A DNA stretch of 34,342 nt from Acidobacteriota bacterium. Lineage in GTDB: Bacteria; Acidobacteriota; Thermoanaerobaculia; Multivoradales; Multivoraceae. The stretch's first letter is position 1; every line of letters starts with the position of its first letter. The notes under the pieces were generated by a model. The model worked only from the letters and a program-made list of their open reading frames with translations, was not told the DNA's origin and searched no databases. The stretch covers positions 12,807 to 47,148 of the forward strand of contig JAPOVF010000247.1 in the NCBI GenBank assembly GCA_026708285.1. The letters run 5' to 3'. The position numbers and the translations under genes are program-made. This document shows positions 1-11,468 of this stretch, one piece after another.

Positions 1-779
1 GAGGCCGGAGCGCCGTCGGTCGCCACGATGACCACTTCGGATGGACCCGCATCGCGGTCGACACCCGCGTCGCCCGAAACAACCTGCTTCGCCGCCGCCA
101 CCCAGGCGTTGCCCGGCCCAGCGATCAGGTCGACCGGCCGGACCGACTCCGTGCCGTAGGCGAGCGCCGCGACGCCGTGCGCGCCGCCCATGCCCCAGAC
201 CTCGTCCGCTCCGACCAGGTCCAGCACATGGCGCAACACTGGACTCCCCCGGTACGCCTGAGGCGGCGTGGCGACAACGAGTTCCTCGACTCCGGCGAGC
301 CGTGCCGGCACCGCGGTCATCAGCACCGTCGACGGATAGGGGAACCGCCCGCCGGGTACGTAGATCCCGACCCGGCGGATCGCCAGGCGGCGCTCCTCGA
401 TCGCAACGCCGTCCCGCTCGAGGCGCAGGACGCCCGGGCCGTGCGGCTGCGCCCGGTGGTACATCTCGATCGCCGCACGGGCGCGCTCGATGGCCTCGGC
501 CACGTTGGGATCGACCGCGTCCGACTCCGGATTCCGGTTGGAGTCCAGCCGCAACGAGGCCGCCGAGCGTGCCTCGAAGCCGTCGAAGCGCCGCACCGCA
601 TCGAGAAGAGCCCCGTCGCCGCCGTCGCGGACGCTCTCCACGATCTCCCCGGCGGCCTGCCGGATCCCGGCCGCGATACCGCCACGGCCCCGCCGGTCGA
701 GCAGTTCGAGGCGTTCCCTCCCGGCGCGGCTGTCCACCGCCAGAACCTCGAGCGCCGCATTGCTGCCAACCTCAGTCAC
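1..779 (-). CDS. hisD: Histidinol dehydrogenase, C-terminus missing (cut by window edge)
   Basis: Histidinol dehydrogenase oxidises L-histidinol to L-histidine in two NAD-dependent steps, the end of histidine synthesis in the cytoplasm. About 259 N-terminal residues are visible; the rest lies left of base 1. Family motifs seen are VGIYVPGG followed by YPSTVLM, the stretch GGAHGVAALAYGTE, then DLIAGPGN and DAGPSEVVIVAT, all in the expected order and spacing for the nucleotide-binding half. The zinc and catalytic residues of the C-terminal half cannot be checked. I chose the GTG at 779, which overlaps the end of hisG by 8 bases and gives a normal N-terminus; it is the last visible gene of the aroDE-hisZ-hisG-hisD operon. 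Identity is secure; the exact start is less so. Confidence 0.95.
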   Translation of the reverse strand, partial: MTEVGSNAALEVLAVDSRAGRERLELLDRRGRGGIAAGIRQAAGEIVESVRDGGDGALLDAVRRFDGFEARSAASLRLDSNRNPESDAVDPNVAEAIERARAAIEMYHRAQPHGPGVLRLERDGVAIEERRLAIRRVGIYVPGGRFPYPSTVLMTAVPARLAGVEELVVATPPQAYRGSPVLRHVLDLVGADEVWGMGGAHGVAALAYGTESVRPVDLIAGPGNAWVAAAKQVVSGDAGVDRDAGPSEVVIVATDGAPA

Positions 780-1410
780 CGGCGGCCTCCGCTTCTTCGA
801 GCGCGCCCAGCAGCCGGCTGAGCCGGCGCCGGTAGGCATGGAACGAAGCCCGATTGACGACAAAGGTCGGCGCCACCTGCGCCAGGATCTCGACCTCATG
901 CAGGTCGTGCGTACGAAGCGTCGTGCCGGTCTGCACGATGTCGACGGCGACGTCCGTCAAATCGAGCAGGGGGCCGAGCTCGATCGAACTGGTCAGGTGG
1001 AGCACCTCGACGTGCAGGTTGCGCGCGGCAAGCAGCCGCGCGGCCCACGCCGGATACCGGGTCGCTGCCCGGAGCTGGCCGCTGCGGCGCGGCAGTTGCG
1101 GCGTCTCGGCGATCAACGACAGCCGGCTGCGGCCGTCCCGAAGCCGCAGCGGCTGGAAGACGTCGGGCTGCGTCTCCTCCAGCACGTCGCTGCCCACGAT
1201 TGCGCAGTCGACGATTCCGTGCTCGACATAGAGCGGCAGATCCCAGTCCTTGAGCAGCAGCACCTCGAGCTCGACCCCCAGCAACTCTTCGCCGCTGAAG
1301 CGCTGACGCAGGCGCGAAGCGTCGAGGTCGGCGAGTCCCACCCCCGCGGCGGCGAGCGCGTCGCGGGCCGGGCCGAGGTTGCGTCCCTTGGGCAGACCGA
1401 ACGTGATCAT
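772..1410 (-). CDS. hisG: ATP phosphoribosyltransferase catalytic subunit, short form
   Basis: HisG condenses ATP with PRPP, the first and feedback-regulated step of histidine synthesis. At 212 residues it is the short form, which lacks the C-terminal regulatory ACT-like domain and works with HisZ; hisZ is directly upstream and overlaps it by 4 bases (ATGA). Visible family features are the N-terminal ITFGLPKGR, the periplasmic-binding-protein-like segment VDCAIVGSDVLEE, and the PRPP-binding loop DIVQTGTTLRTHDL near residue 160. The alternating lobes expected of the fold are present and nothing is truncated. The start is fixed by the overlap with hisZ. Gene order and the paired hisZ make the assignment firm. 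Confidence 0.96.
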   Translation of the reverse strand: MITFGLPKGRNLGPARDALAAAGVGLADLDASRLRQRFSGEELLGVELEVLLLKDWDLPLYVEHGIVDCAIVGSDVLEETQPDVFQPLRLRDGRSRLSLIAETPQLPRRSGQLRAATRYPAWAARLLAARNLHVEVLHLTSSIELGPLLDLTDVAVDIVQTGTTLRTHDLHEVEILAQVAPTFVVNRASFHAYRRRLSRLLGALEEAEAAGD

Positions 1411-2399
1411 GCTCCGACATCTCCCAGTTCCGTCAGCAGATCGAGCCCGAACGAGAAGCCGACCGCCGAGCAGTCGCCGCTGAGCGACCGGAACACCTTG
1501 TCGTACCGGCCGCCGACCCCGAGAGCCAGGGCGGTCCCCGGAGCGTAGGCCGCGAACATGAGGCCGTCGTAGTAGCCGCGCGGACCTGCCGAAACTCCGA
1601 CCCTCGGGTCGAGCGCGGCGGCGGCGAACTCGGCGAGGTCGACCTCGACCTGGACGCTCCGGGCCTCGTACGTCTCGGCCAGCCGGTCGCGGAGCGCCAG
1701 GAGATCGGTCACCGCCTCGGCGGCTCCGCCCAGCACGGAGAGGTCCGACGGGTATCCCCGTTCGACGACTTCGGTCAGGCGAGCCCGGCCCGCGGCCCTG
1801 CGGTCGCGGCTCGCGATCCGAAGCGCCAGTTCGCCGGCGGCGCCGTCTCCGGCCGTCGCCAGCAGGGCCTCGTCGAGCGCACCGGCGAACCCGAGGACGA
1901 CCCGGAGCGCGGCGTCGTCGCCACCCCCGGATTCCTCGCCGCGGGCCGCAAGCAGCAGGTCCAGGAACAGCGTCAGCATCGCAACGTCCGCCTCGTCGGG
2001 GTCGCCGCCCAGCAGTTCGGCGCCCAACTGCGAGTACTCACGCATCCGGCCGGGACGAAGCGGCTGGTGCCGCACCACATCGCCCCGGTAGTAGAGACGA
2101 AGCGGCAGCTTCAGGTCGTCCAGGTGGGGGGCCAGGAGCCGCGCCAGCATCGGCGTGAAATCGCCGCGCAGGGCGAGCAACTGGCCGTCCCGGTCGACGA
2201 AGCGGTAGAGCTGCTTGAGCAGCCGTTCCTGCAGCAGTGGCCGGTACGGCTCGAAGTAGTCGAGGATGGGCAGCAGGACCTCGGCGAAGCCCCGCTCTTC
2301 GAGCAGTCCGGAAAGGAGCGCCTCCAGCCGTCGGCGGCGCTTCACGCTGTCGAAGAGCGAGGCCGACACTCCGGTCGGCAGACCGGCTGAGATCTTCAT
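1407..2399 (-). CDS. hisZ: ATP phosphoribosyltransferase regulatory subunit (HisRS paralogue)
   Basis: HisZ is a catalytically dead relative of histidyl-tRNA synthetase that binds short-form HisG and confers activity and histidine feedback. The 330-residue product shows class II synthetase-like signatures: an N-terminal LEALLSGLLEERGF helix, the motif-2-like LRGDFTPMLARLLA and YYRGDVVRH segments, REYSQLGAELLG, and a C-terminal GVGGRYDKVF with GFSFGLDLL. No anticodon-binding domain follows, as expected for HisZ. The reading frame stays open upstream to 2918, but that part lies inside aroDE and is an artefact of high GC. The ATG at 2399 overlaps the aroDE stop by 4 bases (ATGA) and gives a normal N-terminus. 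Confidence 0.94.
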   Translation of the reverse strand: MKISAGLPTGVSASLFDSVKRRRRLEALLSGLLEERGFAEVLLPILDYFEPYRPLLQERLLKQLYRFVDRDGQLLALRGDFTPMLARLLAPHLDDLKLPLRLYYRGDVVRHQPLRPGRMREYSQLGAELLGGDPDEADVAMLTLFLDLLLAARGEESGGGDDAALRVVLGFAGALDEALLATAGDGAAGELALRIASRDRRAAGRARLTEVVERGYPSDLSVLGGAAEAVTDLLALRDRLAETYEARSVQVEVDLAEFAAAALDPRVGVSAGPRGYYDGLMFAAYAPGTALALGVGGRYDKVFRSLSGDCSAVGFSFGLDLLTELGDVGA

Positions 2400-3910
2400 C
2401 GCATCGACTCCAATCCGAGGGCGTCCGCGCCGACATCGAACGGCAACGGCCCGCCCGTCATCGCCTCGAACTGGGCGAGTCCCTGATGCAGCAAGACCTC
2501 CCGACCGCCAACGACGGTCACACCCCGGGCCCCGAGCGCCCGGCTCCAAGGCGTCGGTCCGCCCCCGTACACCAGCTCGACACCGACCGCCGACGGGCGC
2601 AACGCGTCCGGATCGCAGGGAAGAGGATCGCCGGGACGACCCCCGAGAGAGGTCGCGTTGACCACGATGTCGAACGGTCCGGGGTCCAACTCCGCCAGCG
2701 GGACGAAGGTCACCGCGAGGGACTCCGCGGCCGCTTCCCCCGCCTCGACGGTGCGGTTGGCAAGCGAGACCTCCGCGCCCGCCGCCACAAGGCCCGCCAC
2801 GGCGGCCCGTCCGGCGCCGCCGGCGCCGATGACGAGGGCGGCGCGGCCCGCCGTCTCGATCCCCCGGCGGCGAAGCGGGCCGACGATGCCCTCCGGATCC
2901 GTGCTCTCGGCCCGCCACCTTCTCCCGACCGCCGCGCCCGGGGCCGGAAGCAGAGTATTCGCGCCCGCGGTGCGCACCGCCGCATCGCCGGCCTCCGAGG
3001 CGGCGGCGAGCGCCGCGGCCTTGTGCGGCGCCGTCACGCTCAGACCGCCGAGAGGGAGTCCCGCGCGCTCGAGGAAGTCGCTCAGGACGACTTCCTCCCA
3101 GAACGTCTCGAAGGACGGCGCATCGAAGGCGACGTAGAGCGCGGCCTCGCCGCGGTCCCGGTAGCCGGCGTTGTGCAGCCGCGGCGACATGCTGTGCGCC
3201 GCCGGATGTCCGACGACGCCGAACAGTCGCGCCACCGGCGGCAGATTCGGCAGGCCGTAGTCGGCCCGCAGCCGCTCGACGGACGGCTGGCCGGGAGCGG
3301 CGGCCACCGAACCGGCCGCGCCGTAGACCCAGGGCGCGCCGAGCCGGGGCGCCACCAACCGCGTCCAGGCACCGACCGCGCCCATCGAGAACGCCACGAC
3401 ATCCTCCCGGCCTGCTCCGAGCAGGAGTTCGAGTGGGACCAGCTCCTCCCCGGAACGCTCGGCCGCGGTCACCAGCTTGTAAAGCCGAGCCTCCGTGGCC
3501 GAGGCCTGCTTCAGCCGACTCCGGAGTGCCTTGACGTGACCGGCTCGACCATGCCAGGAAACCAGGCGCCGGCGTGGTTCAACCGCGTCCAGCACCCCGA
3601 AAACCAGGTCGCGGTCCGCCTCGAGGTCGACCAGGTCGTACACCGCTCCAGCCGCCAGCAGCTCCTGCCGCCGGTCCGCGTCGACCGGCCCGCGACCGCC
3701 CTCCGCCTCGCTGCGCAAGGTGTAGAGAAGCTCCCCCGCGAAGCGCTCCCGCAGCCAGGCGGGGTCGATCGCCCCGACCAGATCCGCGCGCACCTCGAGA
3801 CAGTCCGCCAGATCCGAGAGCGCGCGCACCTCGTTGCCAGACGCGCTGGGCGCCTCGGTCAGCGACGCGACCAGGGTGGCAGTTCGCGGTCTGTCGGTTG
3901 TCGGGTTCAA
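2396..3910 (-). CDS. aroDE: Bifunctional 3-dehydroquinate dehydratase (type I) / shikimate dehydrogenase
   Basis: One 504-residue chain carries two consecutive shikimate-pathway steps. Residues about 10-225 resemble type I dehydroquinase: EVRAD at 39-43, R66 in LYTLRSEAEGG, a WH at 119-120, candidate Schiff-base lysine K145 in ARLYKLV, and APGQ with Q208. Residues about 228-495 are shikimate dehydrogenase: GHPAAHSMSPRLHN, VTAPHK with K297, GANTL, STDPEG with D338, the NADP-binding GAGGAGRAA, ANRT and a C-terminal LLHQGLAQFEAMTGG. I prefer TTG at 3910 because AAGGAGGT ends 9 bases before it; the longer GTG start at 3955 lacks such a site and would translate through a perfect hairpin. First structural gene of the operon, after a putative attenuator. 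Activities are certain by family, the start is an inference. Confidence 0.92.
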   Translation of the reverse strand: MNPTTDRPRTATLVASLTEAPSASGNEVRALSDLADCLEVRADLVGAIDPAWLRERFAGELLYTLRSEAEGGRGPVDADRRQELLAAGAVYDLVDLEADRDLVFGVLDAVEPRRRLVSWHGRAGHVKALRSRLKQASATEARLYKLVTAAERSGEELVPLELLLGAGREDVVAFSMGAVGAWTRLVAPRLGAPWVYGAAGSVAAAPGQPSVERLRADYGLPNLPPVARLFGVVGHPAAHSMSPRLHNAGYRDRGEAALYVAFDAPSFETFWEEVVLSDFLERAGLPLGGLSVTAPHKAAALAAASEAGDAAVRTAGANTLLPAPGAAVGRRWRAESTDPEGIVGPLRRRGIETAGRAALVIGAGGAGRAAVAGLVAAGAEVSLANRTVEAGEAAAESLAVTFVPLAELDPGPFDIVVNATSLGGRPGDPLPCDPDALRPSAVGVELVYGGGPTPWSRALGARGVTVVGGREVLLHQGLAQFEAMTGGPLPFDVGADALGLESMR

Positions 3911-3915
3911 AACGG

Positions 3916-3947
3916 GAAGACCTCCTTCGATCCGGAAGGAGGTCTTC
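3916..3947 (-). promoter_or_regulatory. 13-bp hairpin enclosing the aroDE ribosome binding site; attenuator candidate
   Basis: On the minus strand the transcript can form a perfect 13-bp stem with a 6-base loop, GAAGACCTCCTTC pairing with its complement. The 3' arm contains AAGGAGGT, the ideal Shine-Dalgarno sequence, nine bases before a TTG codon in frame with aroDE. Four T residues follow two bases after the stem (CCGTTTTG), so it could act as a weak intrinsic terminator, as an RBS-masking hairpin, or both. It lies downstream of a leader ORF with tandem Trp codons. Confidence 0.75.
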
Positions 3948-3959
3948 TCGCTCACCCTC

Positions 3960-3983
3960 GTCCCGGACCGTGCGTGCCGGGAC
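3960..3983 (-). promoter_or_regulatory. Intermediate stem-loop in the aroDE leader
   Basis: Perfect 7-bp inverted repeat, GTCCCGG and CCGGGAC, around a 10-base loop. It sits between the leader-ORF stop codon (3997-3995) and the RBS-masking hairpin, where a pause or antiterminator segment would be expected. The alternative pairing of GCTCAC at 4018-4013, just after the Trp codons, with GTGAGC at 3955-3950 could link ribosome position to the downstream fold. Folding was judged by eye only. Confidence 0.45.
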
Positions 3984-3994
3984 CTGGCCCGGGT

Positions 3995-4099
3995 TCAGCC
4001 CTTGCCGTGACCGTGAGCCCACCAGGAAGTCGCGACAACCCCGCTCGCAGGAGCGACGGAAGCGGCGACGGGCGCGAAAGTGCTGGCCGGTGAGTTCAT
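3995..4099 (-). CDS. Putative leader peptide with tandem Trp and two His codons
   Basis: A 34-codon ORF starts with ATG at 4099, about 40 bases after the predicted transcription start, and ends with TGA at 3997-3995. The N-terminal part is Ala/Ser/Pro/Val-rich and looks unstructured; the C-terminal end is TSWWAHGHGKG, with TGG TGG at codons 26-27 and CAC at codons 29 and 31. Tandem Trp codons near the end of a short ORF, followed by competing stem-loops and a terminator-like hairpin, is the arrangement of ribosome-mediated attenuators such as trpL. I see no clear Shine-Dalgarno sequence ahead of the ATG, which is the main weakness. It resembles no folded protein family and is probably made only to sense aminoacyl-tRNA supply. 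Confidence 0.65.
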   Translation of the reverse strand: MNSPASTFAPVAASVAPASGVVATSWWAHGHGKG

Positions 4100-4144
4100 G
4101 ACGCGGTAAGGGTGGAACGGGTCGGAATGGCTCCGGGAGGCCGG

Positions 4145-4173
4145 ATACTGCACCGGAAGGTGCGGACTGTCAA
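4145..4173 (-). promoter_or_regulatory. Promoter of the aroDE-his operon
   Basis: Minus strand: perfect -35 TTGACA (4173-4168), a 17-base spacer, and -10 CAGTAT (4150-4145). The predicted start is near 4138, giving a leader of about 230 bases before aroDE. The spacer contains a small palindrome, GCACC-TTCC-GGTGC, which could be an operator but is too short to assert. Confidence 0.7.
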
Positions 4174-4201
4174 GCAGCTTCCGCTGCTGCGGACGGGCTG
4201 C

Positions 4202-4903
4202 TCAGGCCTCTGAGGTGAGCTCGCTCCTGCCCCGGTACATCCCCACACCGATGATGACGAAGCAGAGCGCACCGAACGCCTGCATGGCGTTGTCGTTCGT
4301 CAGGAGCGCCCGGGGCTCGATCCCTGAGACGTGCTGCAGGACCAGGAAGTTGATGATGGCCAGGACCCCCAGGAGGACGAATCCATAGGAGGCCAGCTTG
4401 AAGACGCTCATTGAGCCGAAGCGGGCGGAAAGGCCGAGGCCCACCAGAATGGAACCGATCGGATAGACGGAAACCAACGCGATGACGATGCCGGCCATGG
4501 ACACGTAAGTGCCGAGGGCCAAATCCTCCATGCCGCGCTGCATCAGGTGGACGCTGAATTGCCTCATGCCCATCGCGACGACGTAGAGGCTCCACCCGAA
4601 CACGCTCACATACGCCCCCAGCCGCAGGCACAAACCGCCGGGCCCCTGCCCGGCCAGGCGGAGCCATGTGAAGGCGGCGTACCCGTAGAGGAACATCCCG
4701 ATGATCGACAGCATGGACGCCAGATGCGCGAGGCTGGCGTTCGCCGCCGCCGCGTCGAGGGCGGCCGGGAAGTCGGTCTGGTCCACCCGGTCCACTACGC
4801 CGCCGGGAAAGAGGAGCGATGCGAGCACCGACAGGACGACACCGACGATCAGGGCCAACCCTCCCTGCCTGGTGACGGGGGTCGTTGCAGTGGATGGGGC
4901 CAT
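4202..4903 (-). CDS. Unidentified six-helix membrane protein
   Basis: The 233-residue product has about six hydrophobic segments (first near LALIVGVVLSVLASLLF, last near GALCFVIIGVGMY) joined by short loops, and no motif I recognise. It looks like one of the small integral membrane proteins of unknown function found in many bacteria, and no enzymatic residue pattern stands out. I chose ATG at 4903, which has AGAGGA seven bases upstream, over the GTG at 4930. It follows fabF on the same strand after 66 bases and may be read through from the fatty-acid operon or have its own promoter. It ends about 30 bases before the aroDE promoter. No link to lipid or histidine synthesis can be claimed. Confidence 0.8.
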   Translation of the reverse strand: MAPSTATTPVTRQGGLALIVGVVLSVLASLLFPGGVVDRVDQTDFPAALDAAAANASLAHLASMLSIIGMFLYGYAAFTWLRLAGQGPGGLCLRLGAYVSVFGWSLYVVAMGMRQFSVHLMQRGMEDLALGTYVSMAGIVIALVSVYPIGSILVGLGLSARFGSMSVFKLASYGFVLLGVLAIINFLVLQHVSGIEPRALLTNDNAMQAFGALCFVIIGVGMYRGRSELTSEA

Positions 4904-4969
4904 GTCCACTTCCTCTCTGGTGCGCGGCACCTGCTGAGACTGAGTATGTGCGGCGATACTAGCAGTCCG

Positions 4970-6217
4970 CTAGACGCGAGCCATGATCAGGGCGCCGTTC
5001 GTACCGCCGAAGCCGAACGAGTTGGTCAGGGCCACATCGACCTTCGCCTCGCGGGACTCGTGGGGCACGAAGTCCAGGTCGCACTCCTCGTCGGGCTGGT
5101 CGAGGTTGAGCGTCGCCGGCAACACCTGTCGGTCGACGGCCAGCGCCAGGATGCCGGCTTCGACGCCGCCCGCCGCTCCCAGCAGGTGACCGGTGGAGGA
5201 CTTGGTCGAGGACACCGCCAACCGGTAGGCATGGTCACCGAAGACGCGCTTGATCGCCCGTACCTCGGCGATGTCCCCGAGCGGCGTCGACGTGCCGTGG
5301 GCATTGATGTAGTCGATTCGCTCCGCCGCGATCCCCGCGTCGTCGAGCGCCGCCCGCATGACGCGTGCCGCACCTTCGCCGGTGGGTTCGGGCGCCGACA
5401 CATGGTACGCGTCGGCGCTCATGCCGTAGCCCAGGATCTCGGCGTAAGGCTCGGCGCCCCGGCCCAGGGCCGCCTCGCGCTCCTCCAGAATCAGTACGCC
5501 CGCGCCTTCACCGAGAACGAAGCCGTCGCGGCCGACATCCCATGGCCGGGAGGCCCTGGCCGGCTCGTCATTGCGGACCGAGAGCGCCTTCATCGCGCCG
5601 AAACCGGCCAGCGCCAGGTCGGAGGTGGTGGCCTCGGTGCCGCCGGCGAAGGCGGCGTCGGCGTATCCGTGCTGAATCAGGCGGAAGGCATCGCCGACCC
5701 CGTGCAGGCCGGTGGTGCAAGCGGTCGTGGGGCACGTGTTCGGCCCCTTTGCGCCATGCCGGATCGAGATCTGGCCCGAGGCCATGTTGGCGATCAGGCC
5801 GGGAATGAAGAACGGCGACACCCGGCGCGGGCCGCGGTCCCGCCAGATGCCGTGCATGTGCTCGATCAGCGGCAGTCCGCCCATGCCCGAGCCGACGACC
5901 GTCGCGACGCGGTCGGCGTTGCGGTCGTCGATCTCGAAACCCGAATCCTCACGGGCCAGCGACGCCGCCGCCAGGGCGAACTGGATGAACAGGTCGACCC
6001 GGCGGATGTCCTTCCGGGGCAGGAACCGCTCCGCATCGAAGTCCCGGACTTCGGCGGCGATCTTCGTCGTGTACAGGGAGGAGTCGACCCGCGTCAGCGC
6101 ACCGACGCCGCTCCTGCCCTCCATCAGGCCGGACCACGTTTCCTCCGTGCCCACCGCGAGCGGAGACACGAGGCCCACACCGGTGATGACGACGCGTCTG
6201 CGGTCGCTCATGGGCAT
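4970..6217 (-). CDS. fabF: Beta-ketoacyl-ACP synthase II
   Basis: Condensing enzyme that elongates acyl-ACP with malonyl-ACP in type II fatty-acid synthesis. The 415-residue chain begins with RRRVVITGVGLVSPL and carries the complete Cys-His-His triad: C167 in TTACTTG, H307 in NAHGTSTPLGD and H344 in STKSSTGHLLGAAGG, then the closing NSFGFGGTNG. The nucleophile motif reads TACTTG rather than the more usual TACATG, a neighbouring-residue change that keeps Cys. Two in-frame ATGs (6217 and 6211) are equally likely starts; neither has a strong RBS. It is the last recognised gene of the fab cluster, 45 bases after acpP. Confidence 0.96.
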   Translation of the reverse strand: MPMSDRRRVVITGVGLVSPLAVGTEETWSGLMEGRSGVGALTRVDSSLYTTKIAAEVRDFDAERFLPRKDIRRVDLFIQFALAAASLAREDSGFEIDDRNADRVATVVGSGMGGLPLIEHMHGIWRDRGPRRVSPFFIPGLIANMASGQISIRHGAKGPNTCPTTACTTGLHGVGDAFRLIQHGYADAAFAGGTEATTSDLALAGFGAMKALSVRNDEPARASRPWDVGRDGFVLGEGAGVLILEEREAALGRGAEPYAEILGYGMSADAYHVSAPEPTGEGAARVMRAALDDAGIAAERIDYINAHGTSTPLGDIAEVRAIKRVFGDHAYRLAVSSTKSSTGHLLGAAGGVEAGILALAVDRQVLPATLNLDQPDEECDLDFVPHESREAKVDVALTNSFGFGGTNGALIMARV

Positions 6218-6262
6218 GTTGAACTCGTCACGCCAGCGAGCCCGCGAGGCGCTTTGGCGGCG

Positions 6263-6502
6263 CTAGTTGGAGCCCCCGTGCGCCTGGATGTAGTCGATGG
6301 CTTCCTTGACGGAGCCGATCTTCTCGGCATCCTCATCGGGGATCTCGATGCCGAACTCCTCCTCGAAGGCCATGACCAACTCGACGATGTCGAGCGAATC
6401 GGCGCCGAGATCGTCGGTGAAACTCGCCTGCGGAGTGACTTCGTCGGCATCGACTCCGAGCTGCTCGACGATGATGCTATTGACCTTTTCGACTACGGAC
6501 AT
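6263..6502 (-). CDS. acpP: Acyl carrier protein
   Basis: A 79-residue acidic protein that carries the growing acyl chain on 4'-phosphopantetheine. The attachment site is S36 in [12 protein letters not shown], the canonical position, followed by the acidic helix [17 protein letters not shown]. The frame is open upstream to 6580, but ATG 6502 has a strong GAGAGGA about seven bases upstream and gives the standard length. It lies between fabG and fabF, the classical order, and supplies the substrate of both. Confidence 0.97.
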
Positions 6503-6596
6503 TCTCGTTCCTCTCTGGGGTTGGCGTTTCCGGCCCGCTGACGGATGGAGACTATGCCACCACCGGGGCGATCCGTCCAACCGAGCCAGGAACTCC

Positions 6597-7343
6597 TCAC
6601 GTCATCCCGCCGCTCACGCAGAGGACCTCGCCGGTGACGTAGGACGCCTCGTCGCTGGCCAGGTACAGCACCGCGGGAGCGATGTCGTGCACCGTTCCGA
6701 GACGCCTGACGCCGTACTGCTCGCGGAAGCGCTCCCCGGCACCCTCCGGCATCGCGGCGGTCATGTCGGTCTCGATGAAGCCCGGCGCCACGACGTTGAC
6801 CGTGATCCCCCGGCTCGACAGCTCGCGCGCGAGCGACTTGCTGAACCCGATCAGCCCGGCCTTGGAGGCGGCATAGTTCGCCTGTCCGGCATTGCCGAGG
6901 ACACCCGCGACGGACGACACGGCGACGATCCGCCCGTAGCGACGGCGCATCATGCCCCGCACGACCGCCTTGGTCAGCACGAAGACGCCGGTCAGGTTGA
7001 TGTCCTGCACCCGCTGCCACTGGTCCAGGGTCATCCGGGCGAGCAGGTTGTCGGCTGTGATGCCGGCGTTGTTGACGAGAATGTCGACCGCGGCGAACTC
7101 TCCAGGAAGTTGCCGCACCGCGCCGGGCAGCGACTCGTGGTCGGCCAGATCGAGCGCCAAGGGATGCGCCTCGCCTCCGAAGGCTCTGATCTCGCCGGCG
7201 ACTTCGCCCAGAAGCTCCTCGTTCCGGGCGGCCAGCGCGACGCGCGCGCCCTGCCGCGCCAGCAGCACCGCACAGGCGCGGCCGATCCCGCGCGAGGCCC
7301 CGGTGACCAGGGCAGTCCGTCCGCTCAGATCGAAGATGCTCAC
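6597..7343 (-). CDS. fabG: 3-oxoacyl-ACP reductase
   Basis: Short-chain dehydrogenase that reduces beta-ketoacyl-ACP with NADPH. In the 248-residue chain the cofactor motif TGASRGIG lies at about 14-21, NNAG at 91-94, N116, S144 in SSVAG, and Y157/K161 in NYAASKAG; the C-terminal [18 protein letters not shown] is typical of FabG. I chose GTG 7343 because GGAG lies eight bases upstream, inside the end of fabD; GTG 7352, overlapping the fabD stop, is an alternative. The frame stays open much further upstream within fabD, which is spurious. Gene order (fabD-fabG-acpP) confirms the role. Confidence 0.96.
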
Positions 7344-7348
7344 CGTTG

Positions 7349-8275
7349 TCACTCCATGTCGTCGGGCCCGGCCACCGCGCGCACTTCGAGACTCCGGTCG
7401 ATCCGACGCGCGAGACCCGAAAGTACCTTGCCTGGCCCGAACTCGATCAGCCGGCCCACGCCGTCCGCCGCCATGACCGTCACCGACTCCACCCAACGGA
7501 CGGCGCCGTCGATCTGCCGCACCAGGGCGCACCTCGCGGCGGAAGCGCTCTTCACCGGCTCCGCATCCACGTTGCAGACCACCGGGACCTGTGGGTCCGC
7601 CATCGGCGCCGCCTGAATCAGCGGCTCCATGGCCTGGCGGGCCGGCGCCATCAGGGCGCAGTGGAAGGGGGCCGAGACCGGCAGCGGGATCGCGCGGCGC
7701 GCGCCCCGGTCATCCGCCAGTTCGATCGCCCGCTCCACCGCTTCGCTGGAGCCCGCGATCACGATCTGACCCGGCGCGTTCAGGTTGGCGAGCTGGCACA
7801 CGCCACCCGTGTCGCCGGCCGCCTCGGCCGCCAGCTCCACCGTGTCTTCGACGCTCAAGCCGAGCACCGCCGCCATCGCGCCCTCGCCCACCGGCACCGC
7901 CTTCTGCATGGCCTCGCCACGGGCCCTGACCAGACGCAGAGCGTCGCCGAGTTCGAGCGCCCCGGCCGCGACAAGCGCCGAGTACTCGCCCAGGCTGTGA
8001 CCGGCGACGAAGTTCGGCGTCTCCGTCTCCAGACCCCGAGCCCGGAAGCAGCGGAGCGCCGCCACCGAGACGGCAACGATCGCGGGCTGCGTGTTCGCCG
8101 TCAGTTGAAGCTCGTCCTCAGGGCCCTCGAAGCAGAGCCCGGAGAGCGCGAAACCAAGCGTGTCGTCCGCCTCCTCGAAGACTTCCCGCGCCTCCTCGAA
8201 GGCCAGGGCCAGCGACCGGCCCATGCCGACGCGCTGAGAGCCCTGGCCCGGAAAGACGTACGCCACCCCAGTCAT
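7349..8275 (-). CDS. fabD: Malonyl-CoA:ACP transacylase
   Basis: Moves malonyl from CoA to ACP, feeding the condensing enzymes. The 308-residue chain starts MTGVAYVFPGQGSQ, has the nucleophile S94 in GHSLGEYSAL, the partner H205 in APFHCALM, and the LNAPGQIVIAG segment typical of the family. The upstream in-frame start at 8314 would run into an inverted-repeat region, so ATG 8275 is preferred, although only a weak GAGA precedes it. It is separated from fabH by 132 bases, unusually long for this compact operon and filled with two inverted repeats. Confidence 0.95.
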   Translation of the reverse strand: MTGVAYVFPGQGSQRVGMGRSLALAFEEAREVFEEADDTLGFALSGLCFEGPEDELQLTANTQPAIVAVSVAALRCFRARGLETETPNFVAGHSLGEYSALVAAGALELGDALRLVRARGEAMQKAVPVGEGAMAAVLGLSVEDTVELAAEAAGDTGGVCQLANLNAPGQIVIAGSSEAVERAIELADDRGARRAIPLPVSAPFHCALMAPARQAMEPLIQAAPMADPQVPVVCNVDAEPVKSASAARCALVRQIDGAVRWVESVTVMAADGVGRLIEFGPGKVLSGLARRIDRSLEVRAVAGPDDME

Positions 8276-8309
8276 CTGAACGATCTCGCGACTGCAGCCT
8301 GCTAGCGCC

Positions 8310-8339
8310 GCCAAACGCCTCGCGCGCTCGGCGTTTGGC
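8310..8339 (-). repeat. Inverted repeat upstream of fabD
   Basis: Perfect 10-bp arms (8310-8319 and 8330-8339, core CCAAACGCC and GGCGTTTGG) with a 10-base loop. It lies 35 bases before the fabD start in the fabH-fabD gap. No T run follows on the minus strand, so it is not a classical terminator; an RNA-processing or attenuation structure is possible. Confidence 0.7.
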
Positions 8340-8357
8340 CCCAGCCCCCACCTCTCC

Positions 8358-8409
8358 AGGAGGCTGCGCGTTGTCCCGCACTTCGTTGCATTCCGCCGCG
8401 CAGCCTCCT
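8358..8409 (-). repeat. 13-bp inverted repeat at the end of fabH
   Basis: Perfect 13-bp arms, AGGAGGCTGCGCG and its complement, around 26 bases; one arm overlaps the fabH stop codon. On the minus strand the first arm contains AGGAGG, and an ATG 12 bases later opens a 29-codon ORF (8387 to about 8298) running through both palindromes. It could be a regulatory leader, an operon-internal processing site, or a dispersed palindromic repeat. Confidence 0.7.
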
Positions 8410-9451
8410 AGAAGCGAACCGCGGCGGCGCCCCAGGTCAGCCCGGCGCCGAAGGCGGCCATCAGGATCAGGTCCCCCGAGCCGATCCGCCCGTCGCGATT
8501 CAGTTCGTCCAGCGCGATCGGGATGGACGCGGCCGACGTGTTCCCGTAGCGATGGACGTTGACGTACACGCGGTCGGAGGGCACATCGATCCGGCGACCC
8601 ACGGCATCGATGATCCGGCGGTTCGCCTGATGGGGGATGAGCCACTTCACGTCGTCCGCCTCGTGGCCGGCGTCGGCGAGCACTTCACCGGAAACCTCGG
8701 CGAGGGTCCGAACCGCCACCTTGAAGGTCTCGTTCCCGAGCATCCGGATGAAGGGCAGCCGCGCTTCCAGGGTCTCCGGCCGGTTCGGAGGATTGCGGCT
8801 GCCACCGCCCGGCATCTCGAGCAGGTGGGCCAGCGAACCGTCGCTGTGGATCGCCACGGAGAGGACGCCCGGCAGCCCGTTCCGTGAGTCGGACGCCGGC
8901 TGATCGTCGCCTCGCAGCACGACCGCGCCCGCTCCGTCGCCGAACAGGACGCACGTGGAGCGGTCCTCGTAGTCCGTGTACTTGGTCAGCGACTCGGCGC
9001 CGATCACCAGAGCGGTCGAGGCGGCGCCGCTGGCCACGTACTGGTGACCCACGGAGAGGCCGTAGACGAAGCCGGTGCATCCGGCGTTCAGATCGAAGGC
9101 AGTCGCGTCCCTGGCCCCGATCTCCTCCTGCACCAGGCAGGCCGTCGACGGGAAGGGCATGTCCGGCGTCACCGTCGAAATCAGGACCAGGTCGATGTCG
9201 GCGGCCTCGACCCCGGCCATCTCCATCGCCTGCCGCGCCGCGCCGACCGCGAACTGCGACGTGTACTCGTCGTCCTCGGCTACGCGCCGCTCCTCGATGC
9301 CGGTACGGGCGATGATCCACTCATTCGACGTGTCGACGATCTTCTCGAGATCGGCATTGGTCAGGATCCGGTCCGGAACCGCCCTTCCGGTGCCCGCGAT
9401 CCAGGTTCGCCGCCCGTGGTTGGAGGAATCGCCCCTCAGCCCGTTCGTCAT
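8408..9451 (-). CDS. fabH: Beta-ketoacyl-ACP synthase III
   Basis: Starts fatty-acid synthesis by condensing an acyl-CoA primer with malonyl-ACP. The 347-residue protein has the complete triad: C125 in LNAGCTGFVYGL, H274 in IPHQANRRI and N304 in RYGNTSAAS; GDGAGAVVL and the closing GAGLTWGAAAVRF are also typical. The N-terminus has about fifteen extra polar residues before WIAGTGRAVPD, a modest extension. Its ATG overlaps the plsX stop by 4 bases, fixing the start. Second lipid gene of the operon after plsX; downstream an unusual palindromic gap precedes fabD. Confidence 0.96.
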   Translation of the reverse strand: MTNGLRGDSSNHGRRTWIAGTGRAVPDRILTNADLEKIVDTSNEWIIARTGIEERRVAEDDEYTSQFAVGAARQAMEMAGVEAADIDLVLISTVTPDMPFPSTACLVQEEIGARDATAFDLNAGCTGFVYGLSVGHQYVASGAASTALVIGAESLTKYTDYEDRSTCVLFGDGAGAVVLRGDDQPASDSRNGLPGVLSVAIHSDGSLAHLLEMPGGGSRNPPNRPETLEARLPFIRMLGNETFKVAVRTLAEVSGEVLADAGHEADDVKWLIPHQANRRIIDAVGRRIDVPSDRVYVNVHRYGNTSAASIPIALDELNRDGRIGSGDLILMAAFGAGLTWGAAAVRF

Positions 9452-10536
9452 CCCGCGACCGCCTTGGGCGCCGCTTCGAAGGCGACCTCCGAGAGCTTCG
9501 CGCTGACCTTGAGGTGGATGCCGGCCTCGCAGAACTCCACGGCCCGCTGGATTGCGCTCGACATCGCATGGGCCGACGAACGCCCGTGGGCCACGAAGCA
9601 GCCGCCGCGCAGGCCGAGGAGCGGCGCTCCGCCGTACTCGCTGTAGTCGACCCGGCTCCTGAAACGATCGAAGGCCGGCTTGGCCAGCAGATAGCCGAGC
9701 CGCGAGCGCAGGGTGCTGCTCATCTCCTCGCGCAACTGAGCGCCCACGAACTCCGCGAGCGCCTCGGCGCTCTTCAGGATGGCGTTGCCGACGAAGCCGT
9801 CGCAGACGACGACATCGGCGGCGCCGCTGAACACGTCGCGGCCCTCGACGTTGCCGACGAAGTTGAGTCCCGTGGCGTCGAGCGACTTGAACACCTCACG
9901 GACCAGGTCGGTGCCCTTCCCGGCCTCCTCGCCGATCGACAGCAGGCCGATGCGCGGCGAGTTCATCCGCAGCAGTTGCTGGGCCAGGTAGTGGCCCATG
10001 ACCGCGAACTGGCGGAGCTGGTCGGGTTTCGAGTCGACGTTGGCGCCTGCGTCCAGCAGGATGGTCCGACCGACGCGCCGCGGCATGGCCACCGCCAGCG
10101 CGGGTCGATCGACCCCCGGAGCCACGCCGATCACCATCTTCCCCGCGACCAGGGCGGCGCCGGTGTTGCCCGCGGTGACCATGGCCTGCGCACGCCCCTC
10201 CTTGACCAGGCGGGCGCAGACGCGAACCGAGGAGTCGCGCTTGCGGCGCACCGCCAGCGCGGACTCGCACATGCCGACGACCTCGCCGGCATGCACGACC
10301 TCGACCCGGTCCCGGACGGCGGGCCCGGGCCCGAACTCCTCGATCTCCTCCTCCAGGATCGATCGCCGGCCGACTAGGAGGAGCCGGAGTCCACGCCTCC
10401 GTGCTGCCAGCAGAGCGCCCTCGACCGCGGTTCGGGGCGCGTGGTCCCCACCCATCGCGTCGACGGCGATCACGGTTGGGGTTCGCGTTGAACCTCGATC
10501 CGTCAATTCAGGATCAACTCCGGGTCGGTAGACCAT
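9448..10536 (-). CDS. plsX: Phosphate acyltransferase
   Basis: PlsX makes acyl-phosphate from acyl-ACP, the entry to phosphatidic acid synthesis with PlsY; it is a peripheral membrane enzyme. The 362-residue chain has VIAVDAMGGDHAP near the N-terminus, then AMVTAGNTGAAL, LLDAGANVDSKP, IGLLSIGEEAGKG, NVEGRDVFSG and VVVCDGFVGNAILK, all in family order, ending with a GGAPLLGLRGGCFVAHGRS block. About twenty N-terminal residues before the conserved VIAVDAMGG may be an extension or a mis-assigned start. It follows rpmF after 33 bases, the order found in many bacteria, and overlaps fabH by 4 bases. Confidence 0.96.
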   Translation of the reverse strand: MVYRPGVDPELTDRGSTRTPTVIAVDAMGGDHAPRTAVEGALLAARRRGLRLLLVGRRSILEEEIEEFGPGPAVRDRVEVVHAGEVVGMCESALAVRRKRDSSVRVCARLVKEGRAQAMVTAGNTGAALVAGKMVIGVAPGVDRPALAVAMPRRVGRTILLDAGANVDSKPDQLRQFAVMGHYLAQQLLRMNSPRIGLLSIGEEAGKGTDLVREVFKSLDATGLNFVGNVEGRDVFSGAADVVVCDGFVGNAILKSAEALAEFVGAQLREEMSSTLRSRLGYLLAKPAFDRFRSRVDYSEYGGAPLLGLRGGCFVAHGRSSAHAMSSAIQRAVEFCEAGIHLKVSAKLSEVAFEAAPKAVAG

Positions 10537-10569
10537 CAGTGTAGCGCCTGGCGGGGCGCCGGTGGGTCG

Positions 10570-10755
10570 CTACAGCACGTCCTCCATCTCGACCACGTCG
10601 CGGCCGCGGTAGTGACCGCAGTGACTGCAGGCGCGGTGAGGAAGTTTGGTTTCGCCGCAATTCGGGCACACCGAGCCCGCTGGCCGCTTCAAGCGATCAT
10701 GCGACCGTCTACGGTCACGGCGCGCCTTCGAATGCCGCCGTTTGGGATTTGCCAT
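10570..10755 (-). CDS. rpmF: 50S ribosomal protein L32
   Basis: A 61-residue basic protein of the large ribosomal subunit. The N-terminus [20 protein letters not shown] is typical, followed by a complete zinc ribbon: CPNC, then CSHC thirteen residues later, so this is the zinc-binding form. AAAGGA lies nine bases before the ATG. It sits between yceD and plsX, the widely conserved order that links ribosome and membrane-lipid synthesis. Confidence 0.97.
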
Positions 10756-10777
10756 TCCAGGTTTCCTTTCTCCACGC

Positions 10778-10793
10778 CGCCGCTATGGCGGCG
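10778..10793 (-). repeat. Small GC hairpin between yceD and rpmF
   Basis: 6-bp perfect stem (CGCCGC and GCGGCG) with a 4-base loop just after the yceD stop. No T run; may tune the relative expression of yceD and rpmF, or be incidental in such GC-rich DNA. Confidence 0.4.
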
Positions 10794-10798
10794 CGGCA

Positions 10799-11359
10799 TC
10801 ATATGCCTTCAAGTCGTGCGCGAATCGCCTCCAGCCCGGACCAGCGCGGGTCCAGCCGCTCCCCGGCGCAGGTGCAGACTTCCCTCTTGCGGTCGGCTCC
10901 ACACTGCGGGCAGAGTCCGCGGCAGGACGGATCGCAGATCGGTTTCATCGGCAGGTTGAGCTCCACCTGTTCCCGGACCAGCACGGCCAGGTCGACCGCC
11001 CCCTCTACCGCAGTGAGGGTCGAAAGGTCCTCCGGCTCGAGTTCACGCGCGCCGGCGCCGTCGTCGGTCGCGGAGACATCGTCATGCCGATTCGTCACGA
11101 CGAAGGCAAGCGGCAGGTCAACTTCCTGCTCGTAGGCGGTCAGGCAGCGATCACAGTGGAGCCTCTGCCTGTAGTGCAGTGTCGCCTCCAGCAGGTAGTC
11201 CGGGCCGACGAACACAAGACTGCCCTCGCAGTCGACGCTGCCCAGCACGATCGCCCCGTCCCGCCCGGCCCCGTCCTTCCCGGAACAGGCATCGGCCGAT
11301 TCGAGGTGTTCATGCCAGCGCAGCGGACCGTTGCGGGCTTGGTCGAGCTGCAGGTGCAT
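10799..11359 (-). CDS. yceD: YceD family (DUF177) protein
   Basis: YceD/DUF177 proteins are encoded next to rpmF across bacteria and are linked to 23S rRNA maturation; a precise biochemical role is not established. The 186-residue product has the central LHCDRCLTAYEQEVDLPL segment and a C-terminal cysteine cluster, ICDPSCRGLCPQCG followed by CTCAG, likely a metal site. The start could be ATG 11359 (product beginning MHLQLDQ, the family-like N-terminus) or ATG 11386; both lie downstream of the promoter at 11440-11468, while the open frame's first start (11461) lies inside it and is excluded. First gene of the yceD-rpmF-plsX-fab operon. Confidence 0.88.
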   Translation of the reverse strand: MHLQLDQARNGPLRWHEHLESADACSGKDGAGRDGAIVLGSVDCEGSLVFVGPDYLLEATLHYRQRLHCDRCLTAYEQEVDLPLAFVVTNRHDDVSATDDGAGARELEPEDLSTLTAVEGAVDLAVLVREQVELNLPMKPICDPSCRGLCPQCGADRKREVCTCAGERLDPRWSGLEAIRARLEGI

Positions 11360-11439
11360 CTCACGTTCCACCAGGCGTGCCGCCATCGCGAACCCGGGCC
11401 CCCGCACATTCCGGCCAGGCGCGACCGCGCAAACCAGAG

Positions 11440-11468
11440 AGGCTACGAATCGTTGCGGCAACTGTCAA
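11440..11468 (-). promoter_or_regulatory. Promoter of the yceD-rpmF-plsX-fab operon
   Basis: Minus strand: perfect -35 TTGACA (11468-11463), 17-base spacer, -10 TAGCCT (11445-11440); start expected near 11433. It matches the aroDE promoter closely (same -35, same spacing) and lies in the gap between divergent genes. Confidence 0.75.

Follow-up and report, generated by a model that had tools for sequence, protein, structure and literature searches.

A candidate attenuator with Trp and His control codons in the leader of an aroDE-his-trp superoperon of Acidobacteriota

Introduction

In the enterobacterial hisL leader, a short open reading frame (ORF) with a run of His codons is followed by three or more alternative helices arranged in a chain, with the his genes downstream, and trpL combines tandem UGG codons with a terminator/antiterminator. 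One leader peptide can read more than one amino acid, as in thrL (Thr and Ile) and ilvL (Ile, Val and Leu). Aromatic, Trp and His genes are clustered in the aro-trp-his supraoperon of Bacillus subtilis, which is regulated by the Trp-binding protein TRAP. Streptomyces and Corynebacterium have trp attenuators with tandem UGG codons and a terminator/antiterminator (PMC1262725). Leader peptides that read His are described from Firmicutes (PMC9413887, PMC2965389), with a mention of attenuators that hide the ribosome-binding site (PMC9413887). Here we analyze a 34,342-nucleotide stretch of an Acidobacteriota genome (contig JAPOVF010000247.1; this whole stretch is referred to as the window), in which a short ORF with Trp and His codons precedes a fused aroDE gene and the his and trp genes. 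It is very probable, from sequence comparison, that this element is a ribosome-mediated attenuator with two inputs, which responds to a lack of Trp or His and controls a single aroDE-his-trp superoperon.

The locus has in common with hisL the run of His codons, the chain of alternative helices and the downstream his genes. It differs in its added Trp codons, in a hairpin that contains the Shine-Dalgarno (SD) sequence of the first gene, in an operon that also makes Trp, and in matching no Rfam model. Compared with trpL and with the Streptomyces and Corynebacterium attenuators, His codons are added, his genes lie between aroDE and trp, and the phylum is another. The amino acids read by thrL and ilvL share one branched pathway, whereas Trp and His belong to separate pathways joined here in one operon. 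The gene clustering resembles that of B. subtilis, but TRAP acts there and a Trp and His leader peptide is found here; the leaders described from Firmicutes read His only. Rfam, with its His leader and Trp leader families, gave no match at the gathering threshold in the window and none at E <= 1 in 3850-4250, and the T-box riboswitch model found nothing at the same two settings. In the literature searched, where descriptions in subscription papers could escape, no leader with both Trp and His control codons was found, and none assigned in Acidobacteriota. The attenuator is real and conserved; its signal pair and the superoperon are new, and its class of mechanism is already known.

Results

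Control codons tend to follow the pathways encoded downstream

Read on the minus strand from 4173 to 3908, the window presents a promoter and then a 34-codon ORF; a 7-bp stem-loop and a 13-bp hairpin separate this ORF from the TTG of the fused aroDE gene (Table 1). A preliminary description of the window had listed this ORF with its tandem Trp codons, the stem-loop, and the perfect hairpin with AAGGAGG in its 3' arm before the TTG, and all of them lie where they were placed. The signal proposed there, Trp shortage, turns out to be only half of the picture: the Trp codons are conserved, but 3' of them the window's leader has two His codons, which had been missed. In the comparison below, the conservation of His codons is roughly equal to that of Trp codons, and the two kinds of codon each tend to accompany the genes of their own pathway. 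The control codons of the putative leader ORF match the trp and his genes of the operon.

We sorted 61 leaders by operon content and scored the 15 C-terminal residues of each for Trp and His. Of the 101 loci examined, 53 yielded a short ORF under a promoter rule that takes no account of Trp or His (the blind rule), and 49 of these were used. The four dropped were L184, L224 and L281 (aroDE, neither pathway) and L269 (start of the gene wrongly placed at the end of a contig); where two ORFs were called (L264, L272), the one nearer the gene was taken. The set includes 12 leaders that were read by eye, hence not blind, and five of the 21 same-genus loci. Operons with both his and trp genes (n = 28) have Trp in 28/28 leaders and at least two His in 27/28. 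Those with his genes only (n = 7) have at least two His in 7/7 and Trp in 1/7, and those with trp genes only (n = 13) have Trp in 12/13 and at least two His in 2/13. The class of G045 comes from two contigs, the trp-only class of G087 from trpE alone, and five rows of family f16 classed as trp-only still carry hisD.

Contig ends and mixed genes left 2/61 rows without a his class and 12/61 without a trp class. Among rows of known class, at least two His are found in 45/46 leaders with his genes versus 2/13 without (Fisher p = 3.2e-9), and at least one Trp in 41/42 leaders with trp genes versus 1/7 without (p = 3.4e-6), p-values that, like those below, are too small because the rows are related and independence is overstated. 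The 49 blind-rule leaders give 38/39 versus 1/9 for His (p = 2.1e-7) and 33/34 versus 1/5 for Trp (p = 3.0e-4). As background, one Trp and two His occur in the last 15 residues of 49 of 4183 short ATG ORFs from loci of at least 15 kb, a set that includes the leaders of the same loci.

A single genome, G087, has both split forms, with QQHHHHHI* (asterisk, stop) 5' of hisZ and SWWFLRS* 5' of aroDE-trpE. In G051, an aroDE-trp operon without his genes, WWCVRSRS stands where relatives show WWxxVHHH, and loss or reduction of His is recurrent (f3, f9, f13, f15/f17 and f16). Leaders of G044, G049, G052 and G060 were found after the table and stand outside the tests; those of G049, G052 and G060 fit the codon rule.

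Mutually exclusive helices follow the leader stop codon

The 7-bp stem is formed by segments A and B (3983-3977/3966-3960) and the 13-bp hairpin by C and D (3947-3935/3928-3916). An alternative helix, B:C (3966-3956/3942-3932, 10 of 11 pairs formed), is not in the preliminary description. In the series 0:A, A:B, B:C and C:D each helix excludes the next, and C:D hides the SD of aroDE. The fold of 3890-4145 beats dinucleotide shuffles (z = -2.5; 3/200 shuffles equal or better). A:B and C:D are paired in 91.4% of cells, with changes on both sides in 7/16 pairs, a number reached by 0/500 shuffles. B:C is paired in 89.4% of cells versus 41-73% when slid.

Segments were also swapped between species (23 leaders tried, 22 parsed, 2000 permutations). 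Own-species pairs bind better for A:B, B:C and C:D (0/2000 each) and for 0:A (1/2000), the control pairs A:C, A:D, 0:C and B:D had no own-species advantage, and the result stands with 18 leaders once near-duplicates are removed. The limits of A and B had been set by folding A:B, and those of C and D by folding C:D, which leaves B:C and 0:A as the tests with greater independence. Mutually exclusive helices of the attenuator class are found at this locus, B:C being weak by covariation and strong by segment swap. The conserved short ORF, the conserved co-varying stems and the alternative structure support the ribosome-mediated attenuation of trpL type that had been suggested.

In transcripts cut before D, with a ribosome at the last Trp or His codon, B:C replaces A:B in 15/22 folds and two are mixed. 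In the window, placing the ribosome at the stop codon moves the balance 2.4 kcal/mol towards A:B (2.6 kcal/mol apart). A ribosome covers about 12 nucleotides (nt) from the A-site codon. With this coverage, a ribosome on the Trp or His codons leaves segment 0 free, and one on the stop codon masks it.

Possible termination and SD sequestration at the same hairpin

Of the two outputs previously left as alternatives, termination and exposure of the ribosome-binding site, the weak U-tract found in the window's genus favors control by sequestration. The hairpin contains the SD. The eight bases after the SD read TCTTCCCG in the genus (3 T of 8; 12 genus rows read correctly), and a terminator scan of the window had no entry for this hairpin. 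At least five T are found in these eight bases in 16/22 leaders of other genera in the order (for example TTTTTTGT in L073 and TTTTTTCG in L063); the U-tract is good in these leaders and poor within the genus. A poor U-tract makes a translational output by SD sequestration more likely in the window's genus. Ancestrally, termination and sequestration may have been combined in the element, and in this genus the latter may prevail; our confidence in the exact output stage is lower than in dual Trp/His attenuation.

Conservation and distribution of the leader

ORF and hairpins are kept in 20 of 21 same-genus loci, which is the conservation in relatives on which the preliminary description had let its proposal depend. 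The ORF ends in W(W)xHGHGKG*, with WW in 19/20 leaders, and the stretch from the last leader codons to the hairpin is almost invariant within the genus. L006 (G012) has one Trp instead of two in a leader peptide eight codons longer than those of its relatives. At L019 (G020:C77) the SD hairpin is present and promoter, leader ORF and segments 0 and A are absent; the upstream gene continues without a break to the last part of segment B and the SD hairpin, a deletion or an assembly error. Other families of the order have the same architecture with differing sequence (GWWHGVHHHGDF*, GWWGFVHHHVE*, GWWLRVHHHTT*, AWAWRTHHHHAVS*, CWRSSAHHHAH*, HWWWHGHAHSKA* and others), and in other orders we found RHWHVHHS* and SWHWHHG* (f11) and RHHHHWHWTVRR* and AHRHSTWAWPERR* (f16).

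A covariance model, R1, was built from 22 rows, six of them from the window's genus, using solely the sequence from the stop codon onward and thus with no control codons. It matches all 21 genomes of the genus, relatives in other families, and 64/148 genomes of the class at E <= 0.01, where matches with E above about 1e-4 are partly chance, some of them lying antisense or away from the operon. In a sample of the phylum the model, at E <= 1e-4, matches 23/396 genomes, every one of which belongs to the window's order; R1 thus fails to cover the leaders of other orders, and these were read at operon heads. Matches at E <= 1e-6 outside the training rows include leaders of family f4 (G026, G034, G041, G047), which are placed 5' of hisZ rather than aroDE, and also G029, G043, G052 and, 5' of trpE, G044; G060 matches at 2e-5. 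In G049, G052 and G060 aroDE stands apart and the leader lies directly 5' of the true hisZ. R1 found it at the head of his-trp operons in G052 and G060 (both SWWYGVHHHGI*) and has no match at the corresponding place in G049 (GWWHGLHHHGI*). In these three genomes (L209, L211, L217) a gene, perhaps hisS, with weak similarity to the N-terminal half of HisZ (E about 1e-9) sits between aroDE and the leader-hisZ operon.

No further copies were found in the window's genome, and no such leader was seen at aroDE-alone loci (f12, f4 aroDE) or in 8/9 aroDE-trp loci examined in f3. For the aroDE relatives L099-L101 and L103-L121, tblastn found no his or trp gene beside aroDE, a negative of little weight because several of these loci have little downstream sequence to search (about 70 bases in L100).

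Promoter, aroDE start and extent of the operon

TTGACA and its 17-base spacer are present as previously reported. The -10 hexamer is poor, with 3/6 positions identical to TATAAT, and a stricter promoter scan of the window called no promoter at this pair. The pair is conserved within the genus, and other families have TTGACA with TCTAAT, TGTAAT and similar hexamers. In the window and its genus, 45-47 nt separate the -10 from the leader ATG. This distance is 4-12 nt in 33/52 promoter-plus-ORF calls, one of the 33 (G047 aroDE) not being of this leader kind. With so short a distance, the mRNA from which the leader peptide is read is probably leaderless, or nearly so, in many relatives.

The spacing from the hairpin and SD to the TTG is 8-11 nt in the genus and varies by single bases, which makes an aroDE start upstream of the hairpin unlikely and led us to reject GTG 3955 as the start. 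An in-frame stop 39-42 nt upstream in 5/19 genus loci also speaks against GTG 3955; L018 has no TTG at this place. L016 and L023 carry a tandem repeat (about ..GCGACNTCTGCGGAGGTCGC..) close to the 5' end of aroDE.

The operon had been described as aroDE-hisZ-hisG-hisD. These genes are confirmed, but they are only its beginning: in the rest of the contig, past the window end, it continues to aroDE-hisZGDCBHAF-hisIE-trpEGDCFBA, 17 genes, for which we infer co-transcription from aroDE to trpA from gene order, strand and spacing. The identical order is found in the same genus (G009, G014, G015, G019), in G021, G022, G024, G027, G029, G031, G037, G039 and G043, and, outside the order, at loci of families f11 and f16. 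The f16 genomes G083, G119 and G141 have hisD alone between aroDE and trpE, and a search for hisG found none there.

Upstream of the leader, a 242-aa ORF without Pfam match (4202-4930, minus strand), apparently a membrane protein, separates it from fabF; in G008 (L014) the end of fabF, by reading, occupies this place. A fatty-acid cluster follows at 4970-11461 on the minus strand (putative fabF, acyl carrier protein, fabG, fabD, fabH and plsX; yceD), in which yceD alone was confirmed by search and the other names were assigned by reading.

Table 1. Positions of the leader elements and operon genes in the window
Feature	Coordinates	Strand	Details
-35 hexamer TTGACA	4168..4173	minus	sequence; also same-genus loci and other families
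-10 hexamer CAGTAT	4145..4150	minus	17-nt spacer; sequence; relatives with TCTAAT, TGTAAT etc.
Leader peptide ORF, 34 codons	3995..4099	minus	MNSPASTFAPVAASVAPASGVVATSWWAHGHGKG*, C-terminal SWWAHGHGKG*; ATG 4099 to TGA 3995; 20/21 same-genus loci
Two Trp control codons, TGG TGG	4019..4024	minus	sequence and comparison
First His control codon, CAC	4013..4015	minus	sequence and comparison
Second His control codon, CAC	4007..4009	minus	sequence and comparison
Segment 0, CCGGG	3988..3992	minus	proposed partner of A when ribosome stalled upstream
Segment A, GTCCCGG	3977..3983	minus	partner of 0 or B
Segment B, CCGGGACGAGG	3956..3966	minus	partner of A (off state) or C (on state)
Segment C	3932..3947	minus	5' arm and loop of SD hairpin; CCTCCTTCCGG 3942-3932 pairs with B
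Segment D	3916..3928	minus	3' arm of 13-bp hairpin; AAGGAGG 3927-3921 inside
aroDE	2396..3910	minus	type I dehydroquinase and shikimate dehydrogenase; TTG start 3910-3908
hisZ	1407..2438	minus	start approximate
hisG	772..1410	minus	
hisD, start of gene	1..770	minus	limit approximate; hisC-B-H-A-F-IE-trpE-G-D-C-F-B-A beyond (G000:C156, L173)

Discussion

When charged Trp-tRNA or His-tRNA is scarce, the ribosome would halt at a codon between -9 and -4 in the window's genus. It would leave segment 0 free to pair with A, B would become available to C, and D would be released, switching the operon on. With Trp and His plentiful, a ribosome at the stop codon would cover segment 0, so that A:B and C:D form and the operon is off, its SD hidden and, in many relatives, transcription perhaps also terminated intrinsically at the same hairpin. 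Either shortage alone would be enough, an OR logic.

Several observations weigh against this model. In G098 (aroDE-hisD-trpE-trpG) the leader carries HHHH and lacks Trp, two His are retained in G053 and G044 without his genes, G084 (his only) has one Trp, and G125 (both pathways) has one His; G044 (trp only, GWWWLSHIHWTGV*) also contradicts the His rule among the leaders found after the table. The window's leader ORF has no visible SD. Column-wise covariation of B:C is not above shuffles (118/500) and is weak taken alone. A:B is kept in 5/22 stalled-ribosome folds, those of the window (L004), L029, L035, L063 and L073, and B:C also prevails in 8/22 folds that have the ribosome on the stop codon. 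In the stalled state of the window, A:B (-28.0 kcal/mol) and 0:A with B:C (-27.8 kcal/mol) are 0.2 kcal/mol apart. With D present, C:D reaches -50.7 versus -32.5 kcal/mol for B:C, and the switch would thus need to be kinetic.

Could the leader sense one amino acid only? A leader that read Trp alone, His being incidental or structural, would fit the leading position of WW and its conservation in the genus. We regard this as very unlikely, given that HHH and HHHH runs recur in families whose sequences differ and have mostly shrunk or vanished where the operon has lost its his genes, and that his-only operons have His runs and, in 6/7, no Trp. Slightly less probable still is a hisL-type attenuator with incidental Trp codons. 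It could draw on the His runs without Trp in the contig-limited loci G042, G041, G028 and G146 and in G098, where trpE-trpG follow, yet all 28 his+trp leaders contain Trp, and trp-only operons keep it in 12/13 with fewer than two His in 11/13. That ORF and hairpins arose by chance and have no regulatory role seems hardly credible: sequence is the sole kind of evidence here, but it includes conservation across families, species-matched helices and the match of codons to pathways.

A dual attenuator acting purely on translation, by SD sequestration and with no termination, is a variant of the two-input attenuator, so that the chance we give it overlaps with that reading. The SD within the 3' arm, the T-poor tail of the window's genus and the missing terminator-scan entry speak for it, and the T-rich tails in other genera against it; on balance we hold it possible but rather doubtful.

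Returning to the two-input attenuator, we think it likely that one leader peptide forms an OR gate of two unrelated amino-acid pathways for a his-trp superoperon, retuned one codon at a time with the entry or exit of pathways, with the leaders of many relatives probably on leaderless or nearly leaderless mRNA. The family offers a natural experiment: in most cases, operons with his genes alone have only His codons, those with trp genes alone have Trp and few His codons, and those with both pathways have both kinds, and the split forms occur even within one genome. The gain and loss of control codons, and the weighing of two signals by one leader, become directly testable.
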